A DNA stretch of 64,000 nucleotides from the NCBI GenBank assembly GCA_002839185.1, contig PGXO01000005.1, positions 186,001-250,000 of the forward strand. The letters are read 5' to 3'. A program made the position numbers and the translations under genes. Each line of letters starts with the position of its first letter. The stretch's first letter is position 1. This document shows, one piece after another, positions 22,928-52,482 of this stretch. The notes under the pieces were generated by a model that searched no databases, had not been told where the DNA came from, and saw nothing but the letters and a program-made list of their open reading frames with translations. Origin of the DNA: Synergistetes bacterium HGW-Synergistetes-1. Its GTDB lineage: Bacteria > Synergistota > Synergistia > Synergistales > Synergistaceae.

Positions 22928-24061
22928 TTATTTAGGTTCAACTACGGTAAGGAATATCCTCTTCCCGTTTTTGATCTGCATAATGCCGACAGATTTCTCT
23001 GCATCATGGGAAGCATTGATCGTAGTGTTTCCTGTGACTCCTGGGAAGTTCTTTGTAGCTGCGATCGCTGCTGTTATCTTTTCGGGATCATCGCTTTTCG
23101 CGCGTTTGATGGCGTCAAGGATAAGCATGTAGCTGTCATAACCGCAAGCTGTGAGTGCGTTAGGATCTTTGCCCGGAAAAGCCTTCTTCCAGTTTTCCGT
23201 GAATTTCTTGGCTATTGGGCTCATTTTTGGCATTTCTGGAGCATAAGCGAATGTGGTGTAGCTGAAACCTTCGACAGATTCTCCGCCTATTTTGACAATT
23301 TCAGGGTTGTCCATGGCATCGCCGCCAAGGATCTTGAACTTAGCGCCAAGTTCTCTTGCCTGACGCATGATGATCGCGCCTTCAGCAAAGTTGGCAGGGA
23401 TGTAAAGGACATCGGGCTTCTTGCTGATGATCTCTGTCAGCTGGGCTGTAAAATCCTGGTCACCCTTCTGGTAGTTGAGTTTTGAAACTATTTTCCCGCC
23501 GTTTTTAGTAAAACTGCGCTCGAAGAATGAAGCAAGACCTACGCTATAGTCCTCTGTGACTTCGATAAGGCAGGCTGCAGTCTTGGCTTTCAGCTCTTCC
23601 TTCGCGAAGGCGGCAGCACCTGCCCCCTGGAATGGGTCTATGAAGCAAACGCGAAAAACATACTTTTTGCCCTGGGTTACGAGGGGGTTGGTGCAGGAAG
23701 TGCCTACCATCGGGATACGCGCCTTCTCTGCAACTTCTCCGCCGGCCATGGCAAGGGAAGAACCATATGTGCCTATTATGGCGTTGACTTTCTCTTTGTC
23801 GACAAGTCTCTTGACTGCATTTGCTGCTTCAACTTTATCGCTCTTGTTGTCAACAAATATGATCTCTACCTTTTTGCCCAATACAGTCGGGGCTTCCTTA
23901 TGCGCCAGTTTCACACCATCAAGCTCAAGCTGTCCTCCGATGGCGTTTCCTCCTGTTACAGGGAGGTAAACTCCAATTTTCACCGTATCCGCTGCCATAG
24001 CCGTTCCGGCCATGACAAGTACGACACAAAAAGCCACTAAAATTTTCTTTGTTAACTTCAC
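22928..24061 (-). CDS. livK: Branched-chain amino acid ABC transporter substrate-binding protein, copy 1
   Basis: 377 residues. Starts V-K-L-T-K-K, then a hydrophobic stretch ending G-T-A-M-A-A-D-T, a type I signal peptide, so it is a periplasmic binding protein. The body is the type 1 periplasmic-binding fold with V-K-I-G-V-Y-L-P-V-T-G-G, G-T-Y-G-S-S-L-A-M, a C-T-N-P ligand loop, and G-D-A-M-D-N-P. I chose the GTG at 24061, with GAGGGTG about nine bases upstream; the longer in-frame start would add 24 non-signal residues. It delivers hydrophobic or related amino acids to LivHM. A TATAAT on the minus strand (24133-24138) suggests its own promoter. Confidence 0.93.
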   Translation of the reverse strand: MKLTKKILVAFCVVLVMAGTAMAADTVKIGVYLPVTGGNAIGGQLELDGVKLAHKEAPTVLGKKVEIIFVDNKSDKVEAANAVKRLVDKEKVNAIIGTYGSSLAMAGGEVAEKARIPMVGTSCTNPLVTQGKKYVFRVCFIDPFQGAGAAAFAKEELKAKTAACLIEVTEDYSVGLASFFERSFTKNGGKIVSKLNYQKGDQDFTAQLTEIISKKPDVLYIPANFAEGAIIMRQARELGAKFKILGGDAMDNPEIVKIGGESVEGFSYTTFAYAPEMPKMSPIAKKFTENWKKAFPGKDPNALTACGYDSYMLILDAIKRAKSDDPEKITAAIAATKNFPGVTGNTTINASHDAEKSVGIMQIKNGKRIFLTVVEPK

Positions 24062-24163: not shown

Positions 24164-24862
24164 TTATCCTCTCACCTTTATGCCGGAGAATTTCTCTCTC
24201 AGCTTCTCGGCATCTGCTGCAGGAAACAAGCAGTAGCTGGGATCAAGACAGTTAACGGGCCTGAATGCCTGTATTATCCAATGAGCGTCATCTATCAGTT
24301 CTTTTCTTATCTCGATCATATCCTCTATCGTAAGCAGCCCATCTATAAAAGTGGTCCTGAATTCATAAGCAGGAACGGACCTTTTTATGATATCGATGCT
24401 TCTCTTTATCTTCTCGGGATCAACATCAACACCTGTAACTCTCTTAAGAGCCACTTTATTAAGAGGGGCTTTCACATCCATTGCAACGTGATCTGCCAGT
24501 CCCTCTTCAAGCACTTTGCCTAGTATGTCGGGCATTGATCCATTAGTATCAAGCTTAACGCTCATTTTCAACTCTTTCATCTTTCCCAGAAAATCAAACA
24601 ACCCATCCCATAAACAGGGCTCTCCTCCGGTTATGACTACTCCGTCAAGAAAATTTATCCTTTTGCAGATGTCATCGATGATAAAACTAATGTCGATAAT
24701 ATCAGTCTTTTGAAGGACAAGTTCGCTGTTGTGGCACCATGGGCATCTGAAATTGCATCCTGAAGTAAAGACTACTGCGGATACATGACCGTCCCAGTCT
24801 AAAAAAGATGCGGGGAGATATCCCCCCGCAGTATAACGTTTCATTTCTTCCCCACTACTCAT
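24164..24862 (-). CDS. nrdG: Anaerobic ribonucleoside-triphosphate reductase activating enzyme
   Basis: 232 residues, radical SAM. The cluster motif is C-N-F-R-C-P-W-C (C-x3-C-x2-C) near residues 35-42, followed by V-V-I-T-G-G-E-P-C (the GGE motif that holds methionine of S-adenosylmethionine). It uses S-adenosylmethionine and a 4Fe-4S cluster to place the glycyl radical on NrdD. The start ATG overlaps the nrdD stop by four bases (ATGA), so they are translationally coupled. It is longer than E. coli NrdG and resembles the NrdG type found with Thermotoga-like NrdD. Confidence 0.93.
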   Translation of the reverse strand: MSSGEEMKRYTAGGYLPASFLDWDGHVSAVVFTSGCNFRCPWCHNSELVLQKTDIIDISFIIDDICKRINFLDGVVITGGEPCLWDGLFDFLGKMKELKMSVKLDTNGSMPDILGKVLEEGLADHVAMDVKAPLNKVALKRVTGVDVDPEKIKRSIDIIKRSVPAYEFRTTFIDGLLTIEDMIEIRKELIDDAHWIIQAFRPVNCLDPSYCLFPAADAEKLREKFSGIKVRG

Positions 24863-26994
24863 ACCGAAGCTCTTACAGGTCCTCTTGCCCTGTCCCTGAG
24901 CTCTCCTCTTTTGCCGGCATTCCAGGATGAAGTCCTTGTAAAATAACCGGTCACTCTGGTTATGCCGTCAACATCCTCGGAGCCGCATCTCGAACAGGAA
25001 TCAGAAAGTCCCCTCTCAATATGGTTGCACTCGTTGCAGATGGTAAATTCGGGGCTGAATGCCACCTGGGCGTTTTCTGAATGTCTGAATGTCTTGATCA
25101 CAAACGAAGCAAGCGCCTTGGGATCCGGTTTATGTTCTCCCATCCAGACATGGGTGATGGCACCGGCCTTTATCATGGGATGAAGCACACCCTCCCTCGT
25201 CACTTTGTCGATCGGGTCCTGTACCAGTTTGTAGTTGAGGTGAGTGCTGTTTGTGTAGTATATTTCGCCTGTGTCGAAACTGCCTTTGATATACTTACGG
25301 GCAATATCGGGATAGGCCCGCAGGTCAAGCTTTGCAAAACGAAGCGCGGTGCTCTCCGCCGGAGTCTGTTCAAGGACGATCTTGAGGCCAAGTCTTTCCG
25401 ACAGCTGCTGGCACTTGAGATCCATATACTGTATGACCGCTTTGCCGAGCTGTTCCGCATGCTCGCTCTCGTGGAGCTGACATCCTGTAACAGCCTCTAC
25501 CATTTCATTCAGTCCAAGTATGCCTATAAGATGGCTGGCTTTTCTCATTCTAAGATAGCCTTCGTCATCATGTGAAACGCATAAGGCTGCAAGAGGGCCA
25601 TGCAGCCCCAGGTCAAGAATGCTCTTTATAAACGCCCTTTTCTGCAGATGCGCTTTAGCGGCCAGTTCCATCTCTTCGTCGATTATCTCAAAAAGAGTCT
25701 CTTCGTCACCATTGCACCTGTATGCTGCTCTCGGTAGGTTCAAAGTAATGTTTTGAAGAGCACAGTAACGCATCTTCCATGGATGCTTTGCCTCATCAAG
25801 ATCCTCCGGAGTCAGCTCGAAAGATAGCCTGCAGCATTCCGAGAGCTTTGCTACACCGCCGCGGTCAAAGACAAAGTACGTGTTGCCCTTTTCTGAAGAA
25901 AGCTCACAGGCCTGGTTCAGAAAATCTTCCCATCCCGGCTCCTTAAAGAAATAATCCGTGATGTGGAGCAGCGGTTTCGGGAAGAAGAAAGGCTGTCCCC
26001 TGCTGTCGCCACCCATATACACATCAAAGAGAGCTTTGAGGAACAGTTTTGACTCGGCATCGTAATCAGCATAGGTCTTTCCTGTAAATTTACCCCCAGG
26101 TCCTATCGCGGGAACATCCCTGAAATGATTTGGAATCTCATAGTACAGATTAATATCTGTAAACGCCACCTGACCGCCTCTGCCTCCTGCCAGCTGGTTG
26201 AATTCAAAGATAAGCTGCTGCGCAAGCTGTTTGAGCTGTTCATATGTCCATCCGACCAGATAGGGCGCAAAGTACATATTTACAGCGTCCCATCCTATAG
26301 CTCCTGCAAAATGGTTCTGCAGTACAGAAGTCATTTTAAGTATGTGGGCAAGAAGCACGTCCGCATGCTTAGCTGGTTTAGAGACACTTGTTATCGAAGG
26401 AATATTAAGACCGTAACGGGCAACATATGCAACGCTCTGTCCTGAACAGTAAGGGCGATTTACCATGCCCAGATCATGGAGATGAATGTCTCCCTTAAGG
26501 TGTGCCTCTGCTATGTCTTTAGTGAAGACCTTTGTAAGGGCGTATTCTTTGAGGACCATCTCCGCTATGGATAAATTTATGGATTCAGGATTATGGCTTG
26601 TATTGCTGTTCTCTTTATTTCTGGTCAGCATCATTTTCTCAAGGTCGTGAACAGGCAGACCTATCCTGCTGTGATCCGCCAGTTTTGCTCCCAGCCCCCT
26701 CTGGAAAAGCTTGACATTGACCATTTCACGTATGATCGTTGTCGTGACATGGCTTCTCTCAAACCTGAGCAGCTCCTCTTCGACCTCGAGGGCTATCCCT
26801 TCGGCGGTAGCCGGATCAACCCCGGCTTCGATTATCAGGGCATCCCTTATCCTGCTGGCATCCCAGGGAGAGCTTTCTTCCTGGGCCAGTGCATCGACCA
26901 TCAGTGCAAGATCTGTCGATTCCCCCTGTTTTTCAAAAATCTTTCCCTGTTTGCCGAAAAATGACCCTGATTCATGTAATGCATCATTTGCCAT
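24859..26994 (-). CDS. nrdD: Anaerobic (class III) ribonucleoside-triphosphate reductase
   Basis: 711 residues. Residues about 40-105 resemble an ATP-cone (W-D-A-S-R-I-R-D-A-L-I-I-E), the allosteric dATP/ATP sensor. The ten-stranded barrel follows, with H-L-H-D-L-G-M and N-L-P-R-A-A-Y-R. Near the C-terminus four cysteines (C-N-E-C and C-S-R-C) form the structural zinc site, and the segment R-V-T-G-Y-F plus N-A-G-K-R-G-E-L-R-D-R is the glycyl-radical end. It makes dNTPs without oxygen, so the cell grows anaerobically. AAGGAGG lies nine bases before the ATG, and the gene overlaps the end of nrdR by 11 bases. Two NrdR boxes lie upstream of nrdR. Confidence 0.96.
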   Translation of the reverse strand: MANDALHESGSFFGKQGKIFEKQGESTDLALMVDALAQEESSPWDASRIRDALIIEAGVDPATAEGIALEVEEELLRFERSHVTTTIIREMVNVKLFQRGLGAKLADHSRIGLPVHDLEKMMLTRNKENSNTSHNPESINLSIAEMVLKEYALTKVFTKDIAEAHLKGDIHLHDLGMVNRPYCSGQSVAYVARYGLNIPSITSVSKPAKHADVLLAHILKMTSVLQNHFAGAIGWDAVNMYFAPYLVGWTYEQLKQLAQQLIFEFNQLAGGRGGQVAFTDINLYYEIPNHFRDVPAIGPGGKFTGKTYADYDAESKLFLKALFDVYMGGDSRGQPFFFPKPLLHITDYFFKEPGWEDFLNQACELSSEKGNTYFVFDRGGVAKLSECCRLSFELTPEDLDEAKHPWKMRYCALQNITLNLPRAAYRCNGDEETLFEIIDEEMELAAKAHLQKRAFIKSILDLGLHGPLAALCVSHDDEGYLRMRKASHLIGILGLNEMVEAVTGCQLHESEHAEQLGKAVIQYMDLKCQQLSERLGLKIVLEQTPAESTALRFAKLDLRAYPDIARKYIKGSFDTGEIYYTNSTHLNYKLVQDPIDKVTREGVLHPMIKAGAITHVWMGEHKPDPKALASFVIKTFRHSENAQVAFSPEFTICNECNHIERGLSDSCSRCGSEDVDGITRVTGYFTRTSSWNAGKRGELRDRARGPVRASV

Positions 26995-47342: not shown

Positions 47343-48278
47343 AGATCCGGGCCACCCTCTTATTTTTTTACATACACCGAAAGTATCCGTCACTTGAACA
47401 GACAAGTCAAGCCTTTCTCTCCCTCGATATTATGGCAGGCTGCATCTGAAGCAGTCGCAGATGAAATAGCTACAGCGCCTAAACCCGGATTGGTAGATCC
47501 TCTTGGTCAGGGCTGCCACTTAGATATGACCTGGCGAACATTTATCAAAAGCGCCCAGGCAATAGAACCTTTCTGGGAGTACCAGGCATTGATCGGATTA
47601 TCAGGCACTTCGCCTTCAGAATCCTTGGGGCGCCTGAGATTTATCGGTATTGAAATGGAGAAAAAAATGTTTGCCGCGACTTCAGGCATAAACACTCATA
47701 AAGGCCTGATATTTCTTTTGTCCCTCCTTTTATACGGGGCAGGCTACTGCATATATTCCAGAAAAGAGCTGACTCCTGAAAATATTACATGTTTCGCTTC
47801 CGGATCCGTTGAGGGGCTGACGTCCAGAGAGCTGAGCTCTCTTTCTGAAAAAATCGCCTCAGAAAATCTGACAAACGGCGAAAGGCTCTTTCTCACGCAC
47901 GGTATAACCGGTGCAAGAGGAGAAGCTGAAAAAGGTTTTCCCTCACTACTGCAGCATGGGCTTCCTGAACTCAGGCGCGTATCCTCAATGGGTGGGTCAA
48001 TAAACAGCTCGCATATTGCCGCTCTTTTAGAGATCATGCACAACTGCGAAGACAGCAACGTGATCCACCGAGGAGGTTACGGCTTCTGGCAAAATGACTA
48101 TAAAGATATGGTAAAAGAGACTATCGAAAAATTCGATCCTCTGTCGGAAGACTACCGCCCTATAGAAGACCTCGAAAAAAAATTCTTGAGATACCGCATC
48201 AGCCCGGGCGGAGCAGCAGATCTGCTCTGCTGTTCGATTTATATTGACCTTATAACTAAACCTACTTGTCAACAATAA
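47337..48278 (+). CDS. citG: Triphosphoribosyl-dephospho-CoA synthase family protein (CitG/MdcB-like)
   Basis: 313 residues. Family motifs are P-K-P-G-L-V-D (48-54), H-L-D-M (61-64) and G-I-N-T-H-K-G (117-123). CitG and MdcB make 2'-(5''-triphosphoribosyl)-3'-dephospho-CoA, precursor of the prosthetic group of citrate or malonate decarboxylase. No lyase, citX or decarboxylase gene is in the window. The start is a TTG at 47337 with GGAGGT six bases upstream. The divergent slt start overlaps it by six bases, so their upstream signals lie inside each other's coding sequence. Confident as to family, less as to role. Confidence 0.82.
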   Translation: MHRSGPPSYFFTYTESIRHLNRQVKPFSPSILWQAASEAVADEIATAPKPGLVDPLGQGCHLDMTWRTFIKSAQAIEPFWEYQALIGLSGTSPSESLGRLRFIGIEMEKKMFAATSGINTHKGLIFLLSLLLYGAGYCIYSRKELTPENITCFASGSVEGLTSRELSSLSEKIASENLTNGERLFLTHGITGARGEAEKGFPSLLQHGLPELRRVSSMGGSINSSHIAALLEIMHNCEDSNVIHRGGYGFWQNDYKDMVKETIEKFDPLSEDYRPIEDLEKKFLRYRISPGGAADLLCCSIYIDLITKPTCQQ

Positions 48279-48294
48279 AAAAATGTTGTATTCT
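48266..48294 (+). promoter_or_regulatory. Promoter of the XRE regulator operon, with internal dyad
   Basis: TTGTCA (48266-48271), 17-base spacer, TATTCT (48289-48294). The spacer contains the dyad CAACA (48270-48274) and TGTTG (48284-48288), which could be the operator for the XRE protein encoded directly downstream. The promoter overlaps the end of the citG-like gene. Confidence 0.65.
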
Positions 48295-48331: not shown

Positions 48332-48697
48332 ATGAGTCTTGGCAACAGGATTAAGACATTGCGCAAGGCGCAGAACCTTACTCAGCAAAAGCTTGCTGAT
48401 AAGGTCGAGGTCAGCAGGATATACGTACAGGCTCTTGAAAGCAACAGGAGACTGCCTTCGATGAAACTTCTCCAAAGGCTTGCACCTGCTCTCAATGTAG
48501 ACGTAACAGACCTTCTGATGGACTTTTCATCCCCGGACAACCCTGGGAGAGTCCAACTTGAATCAATGCTGGACAACGGAGAGCTTGAAATATGGTACCG
48601 CAGCAAAAAACTGACCGAGCAGGAACTAAAAAGGGTTTACCGTCTTATTGAGGCGGCTCTTGATGACTGGGAAACAGAGGATGCTTCAGCAAAATAA
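48332..48697 (+). CDS. XRE-family transcriptional regulator
   Basis: 121 residues. The helix-turn-helix domain is residues 5-62: L-G-N-R-I-K-T-L-R-K-A-Q-N-L-T-Q-Q-K-L-A-D-K-V-E-V then S-R-I-Y-V-Q-A-L-E-S-N-R-R-L-P-S. The C-terminal half is charged and helical. AAAGGGTGG precedes the ATG. The next gene, an ImmA/IrrE-type protease, overlaps its end by 35 bases; such pairs act as repressor and repressor-cleaving protease, with an inducing signal. Here the pair sits among chromosomal genes with no phage or ICE gene nearby. Confidence 0.88.
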   Translation: MSLGNRIKTLRKAQNLTQQKLADKVEVSRIYVQALESNRRLPSMKLLQRLAPALNVDVTDLLMDFSSPDNPGRVQLESMLDNGELEIWYRSKKLTEQELKRVYRLIEAALDDWETEDASAK

Positions 48698-49118
48698 ACC
48701 TGACACTGAGGATCTTTGTGAGTGCATCCCCTCTCCTCCGGAAGAGATCCCTCATTGGGCGATCCATGAAGGAAGGGGATGGCAAAGACTGAGCGAGTTC
48801 GAGATACTGGCAAGGGCAGAAGAGATCACCGGTCTCTCTCTTGAGCTTAAGTTTGAGCTCCTTCCTGCCGGTGTCTGGGGTATACACATAGTCCGCGGCA
48901 AAAGAGGACGTATTTATATAAATTCAGTTCTTCCTTTGGTATGGAGGAGGTTCGCACTTTTCCATGAGACCTACCACCTTTTAAATCACAGAAAAGGACA
49001 CCGTTTCTGGTCTCACACCTTTGAATCAATGGAAAGTTTTGAAAACAGGGCTGACACTTTTGCCTGGGCTGCTCTCTGGCCCGAATGGAGCGAGGGGGAT
49101 TACTCGGATTGGGCCTGA
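48663..49118 (+). CDS. ImmA/IrrE family metallo-endopeptidase
   Basis: 151 residues. Zinc-protease motif H-E-T-Y-H (101-105) within R-F-A-L-F-H-E-T-Y-H-L-L, and the third-ligand region F-E-N-R-A-D-T-F-A about 20 residues later, as in the ImmA/IrrE family (COG2856). These cleave XRE-type repressors. The start at 48663 has GAGGCGG six bases upstream, within the XRE gene. It is followed directly by the radical SAM gene (eight-base gap or overlap, according to which start is used). Confidence 0.85.
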   Translation: MTGKQRMLQQNKPDTEDLCECIPSPPEEIPHWAIHEGRGWQRLSEFEILARAEEITGLSLELKFELLPAGVWGIHIVRGKRGRIYINSVLPLVWRRFALFHETYHLLNHRKGHRFWSHTFESMESFENRADTFAWAALWPEWSEGDYSDWA

Positions 49119-49126
49119 TAAATTCA

Positions 49127-50089
49127 ATGAAAAAGCTTCCTTTCTTTCTTCCATTCGGCGGATGCAGGGGAAGATGTGTGTACTGCAGCCAAAACACAAT
49201 AACAGGCGCTTCAGAGATCCCTTCGTCTGAATATGTTTCCTCAGTTTTAAGTGAGCTCGATGAACCGAGAGAGGTTTGTTTTTTCGGAGGGTCTTTCTGC
49301 AGGTTCGGTATTTCAAAAGTCAAAGAGTATCTCGATTCTGTAGTAAAGTATGCACCAGAAGGAAGCCGGATACGTTTTTCAACATACCCCGGAGATCTCA
49401 GCGACATTTCAATGAGAAACCTCATAAAAATCTACCCTATCTCATGCATAGAACTTGGTATACCTTCTCTTGATCCCAATGTTCTCTCTTTGTGCAAAAG
49501 GGAGACTGATCCTGATACAGTTCTCAATGATATAAAAACCATAATGAACGAGTCTCTTCCGCTCGGAGTCCAGATGATGATCGGTCTGCCCGGCCAGACA
49601 AAAGAGAGCAGCATCAACGATCTGAAAAATCTGGCTGGGATCAAGGGGGCCATAGCGTGGGATTTGAGACTTTATCCATGTCTGGTCCTTGAAGGAACTG
49701 AACTTGAGGATATGATGACCAAAGGGAGCTATATTCCTCTTACTCTGGACCAGGCTATCGAATGGGGCGGTATTTTCATTGACAGGGCAGTTTCTTTGGG
49801 ATTCAATCCGATAAGGATAGGACTTCAGGAATCTGAACTGCTTGCATCAAAGGTCAAAGGAGGGCCGCATCATCCGGCCTTAGGGGAGATGATAGCATCG
49901 GAATCCCTAGTAAGGAAACTGACCAGAAACAACTGGACAGGTCCATGGATTGTCCCTGAAGAGCACATTTCAAAATTCACCGGACATGGGTGCTTTGGAC
50001 TCAGGCGTTTGGCTGAGCTTACCGGTACAACAACAACTGCAGTATCAGAAAAGCTATCTTTTTTTCCTCCTGCTGGAAAAATACTCTGA
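49127..50089 (+). CDS. Radical SAM protein, Elp3-like
   Basis: About 320 residues. Radical SAM cluster C-R-G-R-C-V-Y-C at residues 13-20 of the chosen start, then V-C-F-F-G-G-S-F-C, I-E-L-G-I-P-S-L-D, Q-M-M-I-G-L-P-G-Q-T and L-R-L-Y-P-C-L-V-L-E-G-T-E-L-E, a set characteristic of Elp3/COG1243-like radical SAM enzymes without the acetyltransferase domain. Substrate unknown. The start is uncertain: the ATG at 49127 has only a weak upstream signal, and in-frame TTG and ATG codons at 49109 and 49085 overlap the protease gene. It is in line with XRE and ImmA genes and precedes a flavin oxidoreductase gene. Confidence 0.8.
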   Translation: MKKLPFFLPFGGCRGRCVYCSQNTITGASEIPSSEYVSSVLSELDEPREVCFFGGSFCRFGISKVKEYLDSVVKYAPEGSRIRFSTYPGDLSDISMRNLIKIYPISCIELGIPSLDPNVLSLCKRETDPDTVLNDIKTIMNESLPLGVQMMIGLPGQTKESSINDLKNLAGIKGAIAWDLRLYPCLVLEGTELEDMMTKGSYIPLTLDQAIEWGGIFIDRAVSLGFNPIRIGLQESELLASKVKGGPHHPALGEMIASESLVRKLTRNNWTGPWIVPEEHISKFTGHGCFGLRRLAELTGTTTTAVSEKLSFFPPAGKIL

Positions 50090-50224
50090 CACCGGATCAT
50101 ATCTTCTCCCGCAAAATATCAACAGAATCAAAACAATAAAGATTTTAGATTGCAGAAATTGCGCTGTCTTCTGCGTAATATTTGTTATAGATTATTCACA
50201 GTTTTTATGAAAGGACAGTTGCAC

Positions 50225-51379
50225 ATGGATAAAGCCGAAAAAATTAATTCACTGTTCTATGGATTCGAACGATCATCCTTTAAAGCAAGCAACAGATTCG
50301 TCCGTTCTGCCACGCACCTTGGCGGAGCTGATGAGGCTACAGGCGAAATTTCCATTGCCGAGATAAAAAGGCACTCAGAGATCGCAGCAGGCGGTACAGG
50401 CACACTGATTACCGGTCTGGCTTTCATAAGCCATGAAGGGAAATCTTTTAAAAGAGAGTGGGGACTTCATACCGACGAGAGGATAAATGACGTTGGCAAG
50501 CTATCCGAAGAAGTCCATAAATTTGGTTCCAACCTTATAGTTCAGATATGCCACGGCGGCGGACAGCGCGAAGCTTCCGTTGCTGAAGGAACAGTATCTT
50601 TTTCGCCCTCTGGCGGGATCCATCCGATGTGTGATTTTGAAACAACCCCCCTTTCAAAGGATGGCATCAGAAAGGTAGCAGAAGATTTCGCCGCAGCTGC
50701 GCTCAGAGCAAAGAAGGGCGGAGCTGACGGAGTAGAGATACATGCAGGACATGGATTCCTTCTGACGCAGTTCCTCTCACCTTCGATAAACAAAAGAGAT
50801 GACGAATACGGCGGATCACTGGAAAACAGATCTAGGATATTTTATGAAATACTGGAAGATGTAAGGCGCTCTGTCGGAGAGGGTTTCAACATTTGGTTCA
50901 AGATAAGCATTGCGGAAGGCACTGAAAATGGTTACGGCCCCGAGGACGGTACAGCGCTTTCCATAGGCCTTTTGAAAAGAGGGGCAGACGGCATAGATGT
51001 TTCTTCCGGCACGAGCTATGCCGGAGCAATGAACTCTCCCAGCACTCTGGGGGTATCAGCCGGCGAATCTGAGGCTCCATTTGCGGAATATGCCAGGGAG
51101 TTAAAAATACATGCATCCGACAGACAGATAATAATTCTCACAGGAGGACTCAGAAGCCTTCCAGTGATGGCTGAACTGATACATAACAAAACTTGTGATC
51201 TTCTTGCTTTGAGTCGTCCTTTCATCGCGGAACCGGATCTGATAAACAGGTGGCGTGAAGAAGATGCCAGGCCGACTGCGTGCATTTCATGCAACGCCTG
51301 CTTCAAAACCTCGAAGTATGGACTTATAGAGTGCCCCATACTAAGGGACAGAAATGAAGGAAACTGGGATCCTCTTTAA
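50225..51379 (+). CDS. NADH:flavin oxidoreductase (Old Yellow Enzyme family)
   Basis: 384 residues, one FMN TIM barrel. S-N-R-F-V-R-S-A-T-H, V-Q-I-C-H-G-G-G-Q, G-V-E-I-H-A-G-H-G-F-L-L-T-Q-F-L-S-P and R-D-D-E-Y-G-G-S-L-E-N-R-S-R are standard family motifs with the H-x2-H/N catalytic pair. The C-terminus ends with four cysteines C-I-S-C-N-A-C-x10-C, as in 2,4-dienoyl-CoA reductase-like enzymes with a 4Fe-4S cluster, but the following FAD/NAD domain is missing, so it needs a separate electron partner or is a remnant. Start at 50225 has AAAGGACAG upstream. The 135-base gap separates it from the radical SAM gene. Confidence 0.88.
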   Translation: MDKAEKINSLFYGFERSSFKASNRFVRSATHLGGADEATGEISIAEIKRHSEIAAGGTGTLITGLAFISHEGKSFKREWGLHTDERINDVGKLSEEVHKFGSNLIVQICHGGGQREASVAEGTVSFSPSGGIHPMCDFETTPLSKDGIRKVAEDFAAAALRAKKGGADGVEIHAGHGFLLTQFLSPSINKRDDEYGGSLENRSRIFYEILEDVRRSVGEGFNIWFKISIAEGTENGYGPEDGTALSIGLLKRGADGIDVSSGTSYAGAMNSPSTLGVSAGESEAPFAEYARELKIHASDRQIIILTGGLRSLPVMAELIHNKTCDLLALSRPFIAEPDLINRWREEDARPTACISCNACFKTSKYGLIECPILRDRNEGNWDPL

Positions 51380-51513: not shown

Positions 51514-51544
51514 AAGTTGACTAATGTTGACAAGCTTATCCGGT
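51514..51544. promoter_or_regulatory. Inverted repeat flanking the RpiR-family gene -35
   Basis: ACCGGA (51514-51519) and TCCGGT (51539-51544), perfect six-base arms, with the -35 hexamer between them. A second pair AACTT/AAGTT lies just downstream of the -10. Either could be an autoregulatory site. Confidence 0.4.
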
Positions 51545-51555
51545 GAGACTAAACT
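51527..51555 (+). promoter_or_regulatory. Promoter of the RpiR-family regulator
   Basis: TTGACA (51527-51532), 17-base spacer, TAAACT (51550-51555), 60 bases before the start codon. Confidence 0.6.
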
Positions 51556-51615: not shown

Positions 51616-52482
51616 ATGGACAGCACACAGCTTCAGAACCTGCTTATGGAAAGGGCTCATACGATGCCCAACAAAGCAAGGCGTGTAGCAGAATATCTTC
51701 TCGCAAACATGCGTGAAGCCTCTTTTCGTTCTATAGGAGATATTGCAGAAGAGCTTAAAGTATCAAAAGCACAGCTGGTAAGAGTAGCACAAATGCTTGG
51801 TTTCTCCGGTTACGCAGAGCTAAAGAGCTGTCTTCAGAAAGCCATTCTGGAACAGATCAACCCTGCTGCCCTTCTTGCCAGAGCGGTAAGCAGCGGGGAC
51901 AGTTTTCCGGATAGTCTTTACAAAGCAGAGCATGCCAACCTTGATGACACGATGGCACAGCTGTCACCGGAGGACACGGATAAATTCTGTGAACTTGTCC
52001 GATCTGCAAACACTATTTACTGTGTTGGGTGGGGCATTTCATCCCTTGTCGTTGAACTCCTCCAGATGCGGCTCTCAGTAATGGGAAGAAAAGCTGTATT
52101 CGTACACAGAGGCAGTCTCTCGATGTGGGAACAGGCCAGGTGCATCGGGGAGGACGATCTGGTAGTGGTCTGCGAGCTGCCAAGCTATGCTGTGGAAGTT
52201 ACCGAAGCTGTTGAGATAGCTCATAAAAATGGTGCAAAGGTAGTTACAATAACTGACAGTGCTGCTGCTCCTGTGTGCAGGACTGCAGAACTTTCATTTT
52301 TTGTCTCTGCAAACAGTCCGACTTTCGGAAGCAGCATAATAGGTCCGCTATTCCTGACGCATGTTCTTGCTTCTGCACTTGCTATAACGCTTGAGGCAGA
52401 TGCGAAAAAACATCTTGAAGAACAGGCTGAGTTCCTCCATGACGAGAGGATCTTCCATCCCATATTCGGCCTCAGATACTAA
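51616..52482 (+). CDS. MurR/RpiR family transcriptional regulator
   Basis: 288 residues. HTH_6 domain (about 1-77) with S-F-R-S-I-G-D-I-A-E-E-L-K-V-S-K-A-Q-L-V-R-V-A; SIS domain (about 115-260) with I-Y-C-V-G-W-G-I-S-S and a ligand region G-A-K-V-V-T-I-T-D-S-A. These regulators sense sugar phosphates or related metabolites. AAGGAGTG lies seven bases before the ATG at 51616. No sugar gene is adjacent, so its target may be elsewhere or be itself (see the dyads upstream). Confidence 0.9.
   Translation: MDSTQLQNLLMERAHTMPNKARRVAEYLLANMREASFRSIGDIAEELKVSKAQLVRVAQMLGFSGYAELKSCLQKAILEQINPAALLARAVSSGDSFPDSLYKAEHANLDDTMAQLSPEDTDKFCELVRSANTIYCVGWGISSLVVELLQMRLSVMGRKAVFVHRGSLSMWEQARCIGEDDLVVVCELPSYAVEVTEAVEIAHKNGAKVVTITDSAAAPVCRTAELSFFVSANSPTFGSSIIGPLFLTHVLASALAITLEADAKKHLEEQAEFLHDERIFHPIFGLRY

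Follow-up and report, generated by a model that had tools for sequence, protein, structure and literature searches.

A predicted protease-relieved XRE repressor switch ahead of a radical SAM gene in the chromosome of Synergistota

XRE-family repressors that are relieved by a protease are known mainly from mobile elements, from defence operons and from the radiation response of Deinococcus. On the mobile element ICEBs1, ImmA is a short M78 protease encoded beside an XRE repressor, and such a pair is also found at the locus described here, which lies in a 64,000-nucleotide stretch of the genome of Synergistetes bacterium HGW-Synergistetes-1 (contig PGXO01000005.1, positions 186,001 to 250,000; the window hereafter) and in which the pair is followed by genes for a radical SAM enzyme and an Old Yellow Enzyme (OYE) family flavin oxidoreductase. 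In the Deinococcus switch, the repressor DdrO (129 residues) is cut between L106 and R107, in its C-terminal domain, according to the available excerpt of PMC7907104, which also gives zinc release by oxidants as a proposed activating signal of the protease IrrE. The GAF-like domain of this protease, also named PprI, is placed at residues 177-277 in the excerpt of PMC10904395 and is described in the excerpts of PMC10904395 and PMC7907104 as being required for activation by single-stranded DNA (ssDNA), but not for basal cleavage.

All four genes of the window locus lie on the plus strand, in the order that the original prediction had read from the letters. The first (48332-48697) encodes a predicted XRE-family repressor of 121 amino acids (Pfam HTH_3, 53 bits), and the second an M78 (ImmA/IrrE-type) zinc metallopeptidase of 145 amino acids (PF06114, 28.0 bits, with a cut-off of 22), which runs from 48681 to 49118 with an alternative ATG at 48663. 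The 35-base overlap claimed for these two genes is correct given ATG 48663, and amounts to 17 bases from ATG 48681, the start used in our analysis. The distance to the third gene, put at eight bases or fewer, is exactly 8 (49119-49126), and this gene (49127-50089) encodes an Elp3/MnmL-like radical SAM enzyme (PF04055, 44.5 bits; PF16199, 46.1 bits) with a CxxxCxxC motif. The OYE gene (ATG 50225, stop 51379; 384 amino acids; PF00724, 178 bits) begins 135 bases past the radical SAM stop and is an accessory gene of the operon.

The locus is probably an autoregulated, protease-relieved switch that has become fixed in the chromosome of Synergistota, a phylum of anaerobes, and has the radical SAM enzyme as its main output. 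A dimer of the XRE protein would bind an element 5' of its own gene and, when bound, would repress XRE, M78, radical SAM and, where present, OYE. Upon some signal, the zinc protease would cut the C-terminal (dimerization) domain of XRE, perhaps near the last helix carrying Val102 and Trp113, and the operon would then be derepressed, its main product being the Elp3-like radical SAM enzyme and OYE an accessory one.

Conservation of the locus in Synergistota

A contig profile search with the radical SAM alignment yielded 387 confirmed relatives, from which 80 loci were kept, 54 in Synergistota and 26 in other phyla. XRE lies upstream in 48 of the Synergistota loci and M78 in 37, and neither was seen in any of the 26 others; at least three of the six Synergistota loci without XRE (L074, L094, L101) begin near a contig end. 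Gene presence was further counted over 60 related genomes, in one combined tally with the loci. XRE is present in 50 of these genomes (11 of them without M78), M78 of this subfamily in 39 and radical SAM, as a strong match, in 42, one of which is cut by a contig end; the raw tallies of 41 for M78 and 56 for radical SAM take in weak matches, in the latter case to other radical SAM proteins. As the original prediction implied, the gene order recurs in relatives: M78 stands directly downstream of XRE in all 39 genomes that have it, and radical SAM comes next in 32 of these. M78 was never found without XRE, which is the direction expected if XRE is the substrate of M78. The three genes occur together in 32 genomes (31 plus G049, the genome with the cut radical SAM gene), XRE and M78 without radical SAM in 7, XRE and radical SAM without M78 in 6, XRE alone in 5, radical SAM alone in 4, and none of them in 6. 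It should be noted that these presence counts come from separate searches, as the gene-order table loses some XRE, M78 and radical SAM genes where overlapping open reading frames (ORFs) compete.

Across many genera and several families the locus occupies the same place, with a CitG-like or SLT gene on one side and an RpiR regulator gene on the other, and the XRE and radical SAM trees recover largely the same clades. The four-gene arrangement is more than chance, because it recurs across the phylum. One contig, L067 (7644 bases), repeats the locus in inverted form about its centre and is probably an assembly artefact.

Evolution of the repressor with and without the protease

The XRE protein is made up of a helix-turn-helix (HTH) domain (residues 1-63), with structural matches to DdrO (6rnz, Z 13.2), ImmR (7t8i, Z 12.8) and CapH (7t5u, Z 12.4), and a helical C-terminal domain that bears Trp88 and Trp113 and ends in a long helix (96-120) in a low-confidence AlphaFold model. 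Losses of M78 are recurrent (7 label changes on one of the two trees and 12 on the other) and leave XRE and radical SAM in place, and the rate of XRE evolution differs accordingly between genomes with and without it. On a radical SAM tree of 58 genomes, we compared the terminal branches of each XRE half with those of radical SAM, leaving out genomes without XRE or radical SAM, G049 and xL085, whose radical SAM gene is in two pieces (L085:6001-6996, in a genome without M78). The median ratio for the C-terminal domain is 2.30 at the 11 tips without M78 and 0.54 at the 47 tips with M78 (Mann-Whitney p 1.4e-5), that is, about fourfold faster evolution where M78 was lost, and for the HTH domain 0.58 and 0.16 (p 0.014), the tips not being mutually independent in either test. 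The C-terminal domain is also the faster on the M78-less side in 7 of 8 comparisons, which were chosen by hand and whose paths are not all disjoint. At the level of single residues, Trp113 is present in 55/55 XRE rows with M78 and in 4/17 without, Val102 in 52/55 and 5/17, and Trp88 in all 72. This M78-dependent constraint is the strongest evidence, albeit indirect, that M78 and the C-terminus of XRE interact. Since DdrO is cut after residue 106 of 129, a cut site in the last helix of the 121-residue XRE protein is plausible.

The protease itself has the catalytic-type residues H95 E96 xx H99, together with E121, and the HExxH motif is intact in 54 of 55 M78 rows. Its AlphaFold model (22-row alignment, pLDDT 83.8) matches the folds of PprI-ssDNA (8sln, Z 10.3) and IrrE (3dte, Z 10.2), followed by a Mycobacterium transcriptional regulator (6d2s, Z 9.2) and CapP (7t5t, Z 9.0), with a best Foldseek E value of 1.9e-3. 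These matches came from the fold search alone, searches of the PDB sequences with the single sequence or a profile giving none. The PprI and IrrE matches stop at chain residues 154-166, before the GAF-like domain; as the window protease has no such ssDNA-sensing domain, a DNA-damage trigger of the IrrE/PprI type is not expected, and a zinc or redox signal, by analogy with IrrE, is possible. In G028 (L162:6244-6687), a genome without radical SAM, XRE keeps Trp113 despite the loss of a histidine from M78, which is possibly an inactive protease there.

Downstream genes, promoter and alternative explanations

The genes behind the pair are exchangeable. In the family of the window, radical SAM is often followed by OYE and then RpiR, and other lineages have a MATE pump gene between radical SAM and RpiR (G040, G044, G053, G057, L104, L106, L108, L109, L111); MatE was assigned with Pfam only for G040 and two XRE-MATE genes, and the other MATE calls come from profiles built from these. 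Where radical SAM is absent, M78 is followed by OYE after 19 bases in G012 and 40 bases in G028, and XRE by a MATE pump gene after 2-4 bases in G043, G052 and G059. The place is taken by RpiR in G038, G047 and G055, and in G009 an aminotransferase gene lies 232 bases downstream; in G039, G048 and G056 the gene after the pair is on the opposite strand. In the spacing table, the interval between M78 and radical SAM runs from -11 to 24 bases. The differing genes indicate that the pair heads operons of different content, radical SAM being the commonest, and the seven XRE-M78 genomes without radical SAM, taken with the accessory nature of OYE, indicate that control of radical SAM is not its only use.

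It could be argued from those seven genomes, three of which have no same-strand gene behind the pair, that XRE and M78 form a self-contained pair, either toxin-antitoxin-like or an accessory regulator, and that radical SAM and OYE are passengers of a stable locus sharing its transcript. A zinc-metalloprotease/HTH-Xre pair of Brucella is indeed treated as a toxin-antitoxin system in the available part of PMC10538038. However, the next gene lies tightly behind the pair, whether it is radical SAM or one of the closely placed OYE and MATE replacements, and the repeated loss of M78 with XRE and radical SAM kept would be odd if M78 were the reason for the pair. We regard this explanation as unlikely.

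The predicted promoter/operator-like element of the window lies at 48266-48294 on the plus strand, directly 5' of XRE, and consists of TTGTCA (-35), a 17-base spacer and TATTCT (-10); it is spanned by TTGTCAACAAT-N7-TGTTGTAT. At three or fewer mismatches, the element has one copy in the window against 0.01 expected. A slightly longer form was found, at the same tolerance, at one site per genome in 8/8 genomes of the genus, always 5' of XRE, the reversed pattern giving 0 sites as a control, and the f5 genomes have their own version, in single copy in 3/3 genomes. Of the 71 regions upstream of XRE, 22 contain TTGTCAACA, against 0.05 in shuffles; once the seven same-genus copies are removed, 15 of the 47 regions from loci with M78 have it and none of the 17 from loci lacking M78. 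Its distribution tracks clades, and several M78-bearing clades also lack it. The separate radical SAM promoter that would have told against the original prediction was not seen: on the plus strand, no sigma-70-like promoter was found from XRE to the radical SAM start, the nearest upstream being 48266-48294, in a scan whose total number of sites is no higher than in shuffles (6 and 6.5). The simplest reading is autoregulation of one local operon.

A trans-acting XRE regulator with distant targets, whose own operon would be just the autoregulatory part, might explain why, in most loci, the neighbours of XRE are less conserved than XRE itself (within the genus, 93-99% for XRE and 78-89% for radical SAM) and why the pair persists in the f5 genomes G039, G048 and G056 without downstream genes. 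This explanation is hard to reconcile with the single copy per genome of both the full element and its f5 version, although looser motifs could escape such a search, and a trans regulon defined by the strict motif was rejected on this ground. Matches to the bare 11-mer fall within genes in five of the six loci inspected (L182, L183, L188, L186, L189) and in an intergenic region in L190; two of L182, L183 and L188 are from the window's own genome. Likewise, TTGTCAACAA-like sites elsewhere in the window are not significantly enriched (10 at one mismatch or fewer, 6.0 expected), and the one at 23847 falls within an ORF resembling a periplasmic substrate-binding protein. We consider distant targets improbable. 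Another conserved promoter-like stretch, TGTACACTTTT...TATCGTAGTAAAAT, is found 5' of XRE, close to the end of the CitG-like gene or overlapping it, in L077, L079, L080, L081, L091, L092, L099, L103 and relatives.

That the locus is a remnant of a mobile element or a prophage regulator pair is scarcely credible and was rejected: mobile elements often carry XRE/M78 pairs, as in ImmR/ImmA, and phage repressors and a family of phage metalloproteases are among the nearest profiles, but the locus holds one chromosomal place across the phylum and its XRE and radical SAM trees largely agree in their clades, in line with the earlier claim that no mobile element is present here, integrases not having been searched for.

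Several observations weigh against the protease-relieved switch that we favour. The pair occurs without radical SAM in 7 of the 39 M78 genomes (G009, G012, G028, G038, G039, G048, G056), and in G039, G048 and G056 no gene stands behind it on its own strand. TTGTCAACA is confined to its 22 regions, other clades having other promoter sequences. The AlphaFold model of the XRE C-terminal domain is weak (block pLDDT 46-71), and by summed branches the HTH domain also accelerates after M78 loss (0.91 without and 0.32 with M78), not the C-terminal domain alone (2.69 and 0.77). A strict independent-pairs test of Trp113 was not significant, with 3-4 of 6 pairs agreeing and 0 disagreeing (p 0.125), the pairs being too few. 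Finally, the M78 of G028 misses the first His of HExxH. On the other side, the switch proposed in the original prediction is plausible and backed by the gene order, the catalytic residues, the fold, the single predicted promoter/operator, the tight spacing, the gene swapping and the M78-dependent constraint on the XRE C-terminal domain, the exception being the stress that it names.

The radical SAM enzyme, whose CxxxCxxC motif is invariant in 13/13 aligned sequences, scores far under the NCBIfam cut-offs of both Elp3 (TIGR01211, 39.2 bits, cut-off 350) and MnmL/YtqA (TIGR01212, 35.4 bits, cut-off 180), and a Pfam scan found no acetyltransferase (GNAT) domain in it; its PDB sequence matches are all Elp3. 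Outside Synergistota, where some loci are cut by contig ends, its homologue stands behind RNase III in 8 of the 26 loci, 3 of which have SMC next, is fused to or lies beside DUF6873 (PF21778) in 15, including L114 and L134, and has neither in 3. A search for DUF6873 gave no match in the 60 Synergistota genomes, a weak test in that 14 control genomes also gave none. Literature searches found no paper naming DUF6873 and, among the papers listed, no substrate for this radical SAM family. The enzyme probably modifies RNA, as the RNase III linkage and its kinship with tRNA-modifying enzymes suggest. We put forward, tentatively and with less confidence than the switch itself, that a minimal, sensor-less M78 recognises the last helix of XRE (Trp113) and thereby turns on an Elp3-like RNA-modifying enzyme, the same head being re-used for OYE or MATE in sister lineages, so that the pair would serve as an exchangeable, stress-responsive control unit placed before metabolic genes, and not before mobile DNA or defence genes.

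The locus is flanked on the plus strand by the CitG-like gene (PF01874, 47337-48278), a frequent upstream neighbour whose 3' end abuts the XRE promoter, and by the RpiR/SIS regulator gene (51616-52482), frequently the last of the neighbourhood, with its own predicted promoter at 51527-51555. A second XRE-M78 pair in the same genome (L001:962-2611, contig C10), whose 253-amino-acid protease is followed by a different type of gene (176 amino acids), seems to be an accessory module in its own right. Elsewhere in the window (24164-26994), two neighbouring minus-strand ORFs resemble, by eye, an anaerobic ribonucleotide reductase and its radical SAM activase, and an Rfam scan of the whole window gave no match.

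Comparison with described protease-repressor switches

A literature search for Synergistota with IrrE, XRE and radical SAM returned, among the matches listed, only papers whose available excerpts are off-topic. The Elp3 and MnmL/YtqA enzymes share PF04055, PF16199 and CxxxCxxC with the window enzyme, which differs in its low family scores and in lacking the acetyltransferase domain. With respect to the regulatory pair, IrrE(PprI)/DdrO of Deinococcus likewise combines an M78-type zinc peptidase with a short XRE repressor having a C-terminal domain, is chromosomal and not mobile, and has an M78 fold with HExxH and a downstream Glu, all present in Synergistota; the HTH domain is like that of DdrO, and the comparison of the C-terminal domains uses a weak model. 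However, the Synergistota protease, at 145 amino acids, is without the GAF-like domain, and IrrE/DdrO controls a regulon, whereas the genus of the window has one local site with the radical SAM enzyme as output.

CapP/CapH is likewise an adjacent protease-repressor pair heading an operon, and the window XRE matches the capH profile at 47 bits (E 9.3e-13) and M78 the capP profile weakly (23 bits, E 1.4e-5). CapP/CapH, however, sits upstream of a CBASS/defence operon, whereas the Synergistota neighbours are radical SAM, OYE, MATE and RpiR; in PADLOC, OYE had no match and the radical SAM match reached just 21 bits. Similarly, the HTH domain is like that of ImmR, but ImmA/ImmR is on a mobile element, whereas the Synergistota pair is in a conserved chromosomal neighbourhood and tied to metabolic genes. 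The Synergistota locus is probably a chromosomal and phylum-wide variant of the XRE/M78 switch, in which the protease is short and the metabolic outputs can be exchanged, its cleavage and control being predicted. If true, the mechanism would be extended to the conditional control of a radical SAM enzyme family throughout a phylum, and the many natural losses of M78 would provide a ready system for finding the residues by which such proteases recognise their repressors.

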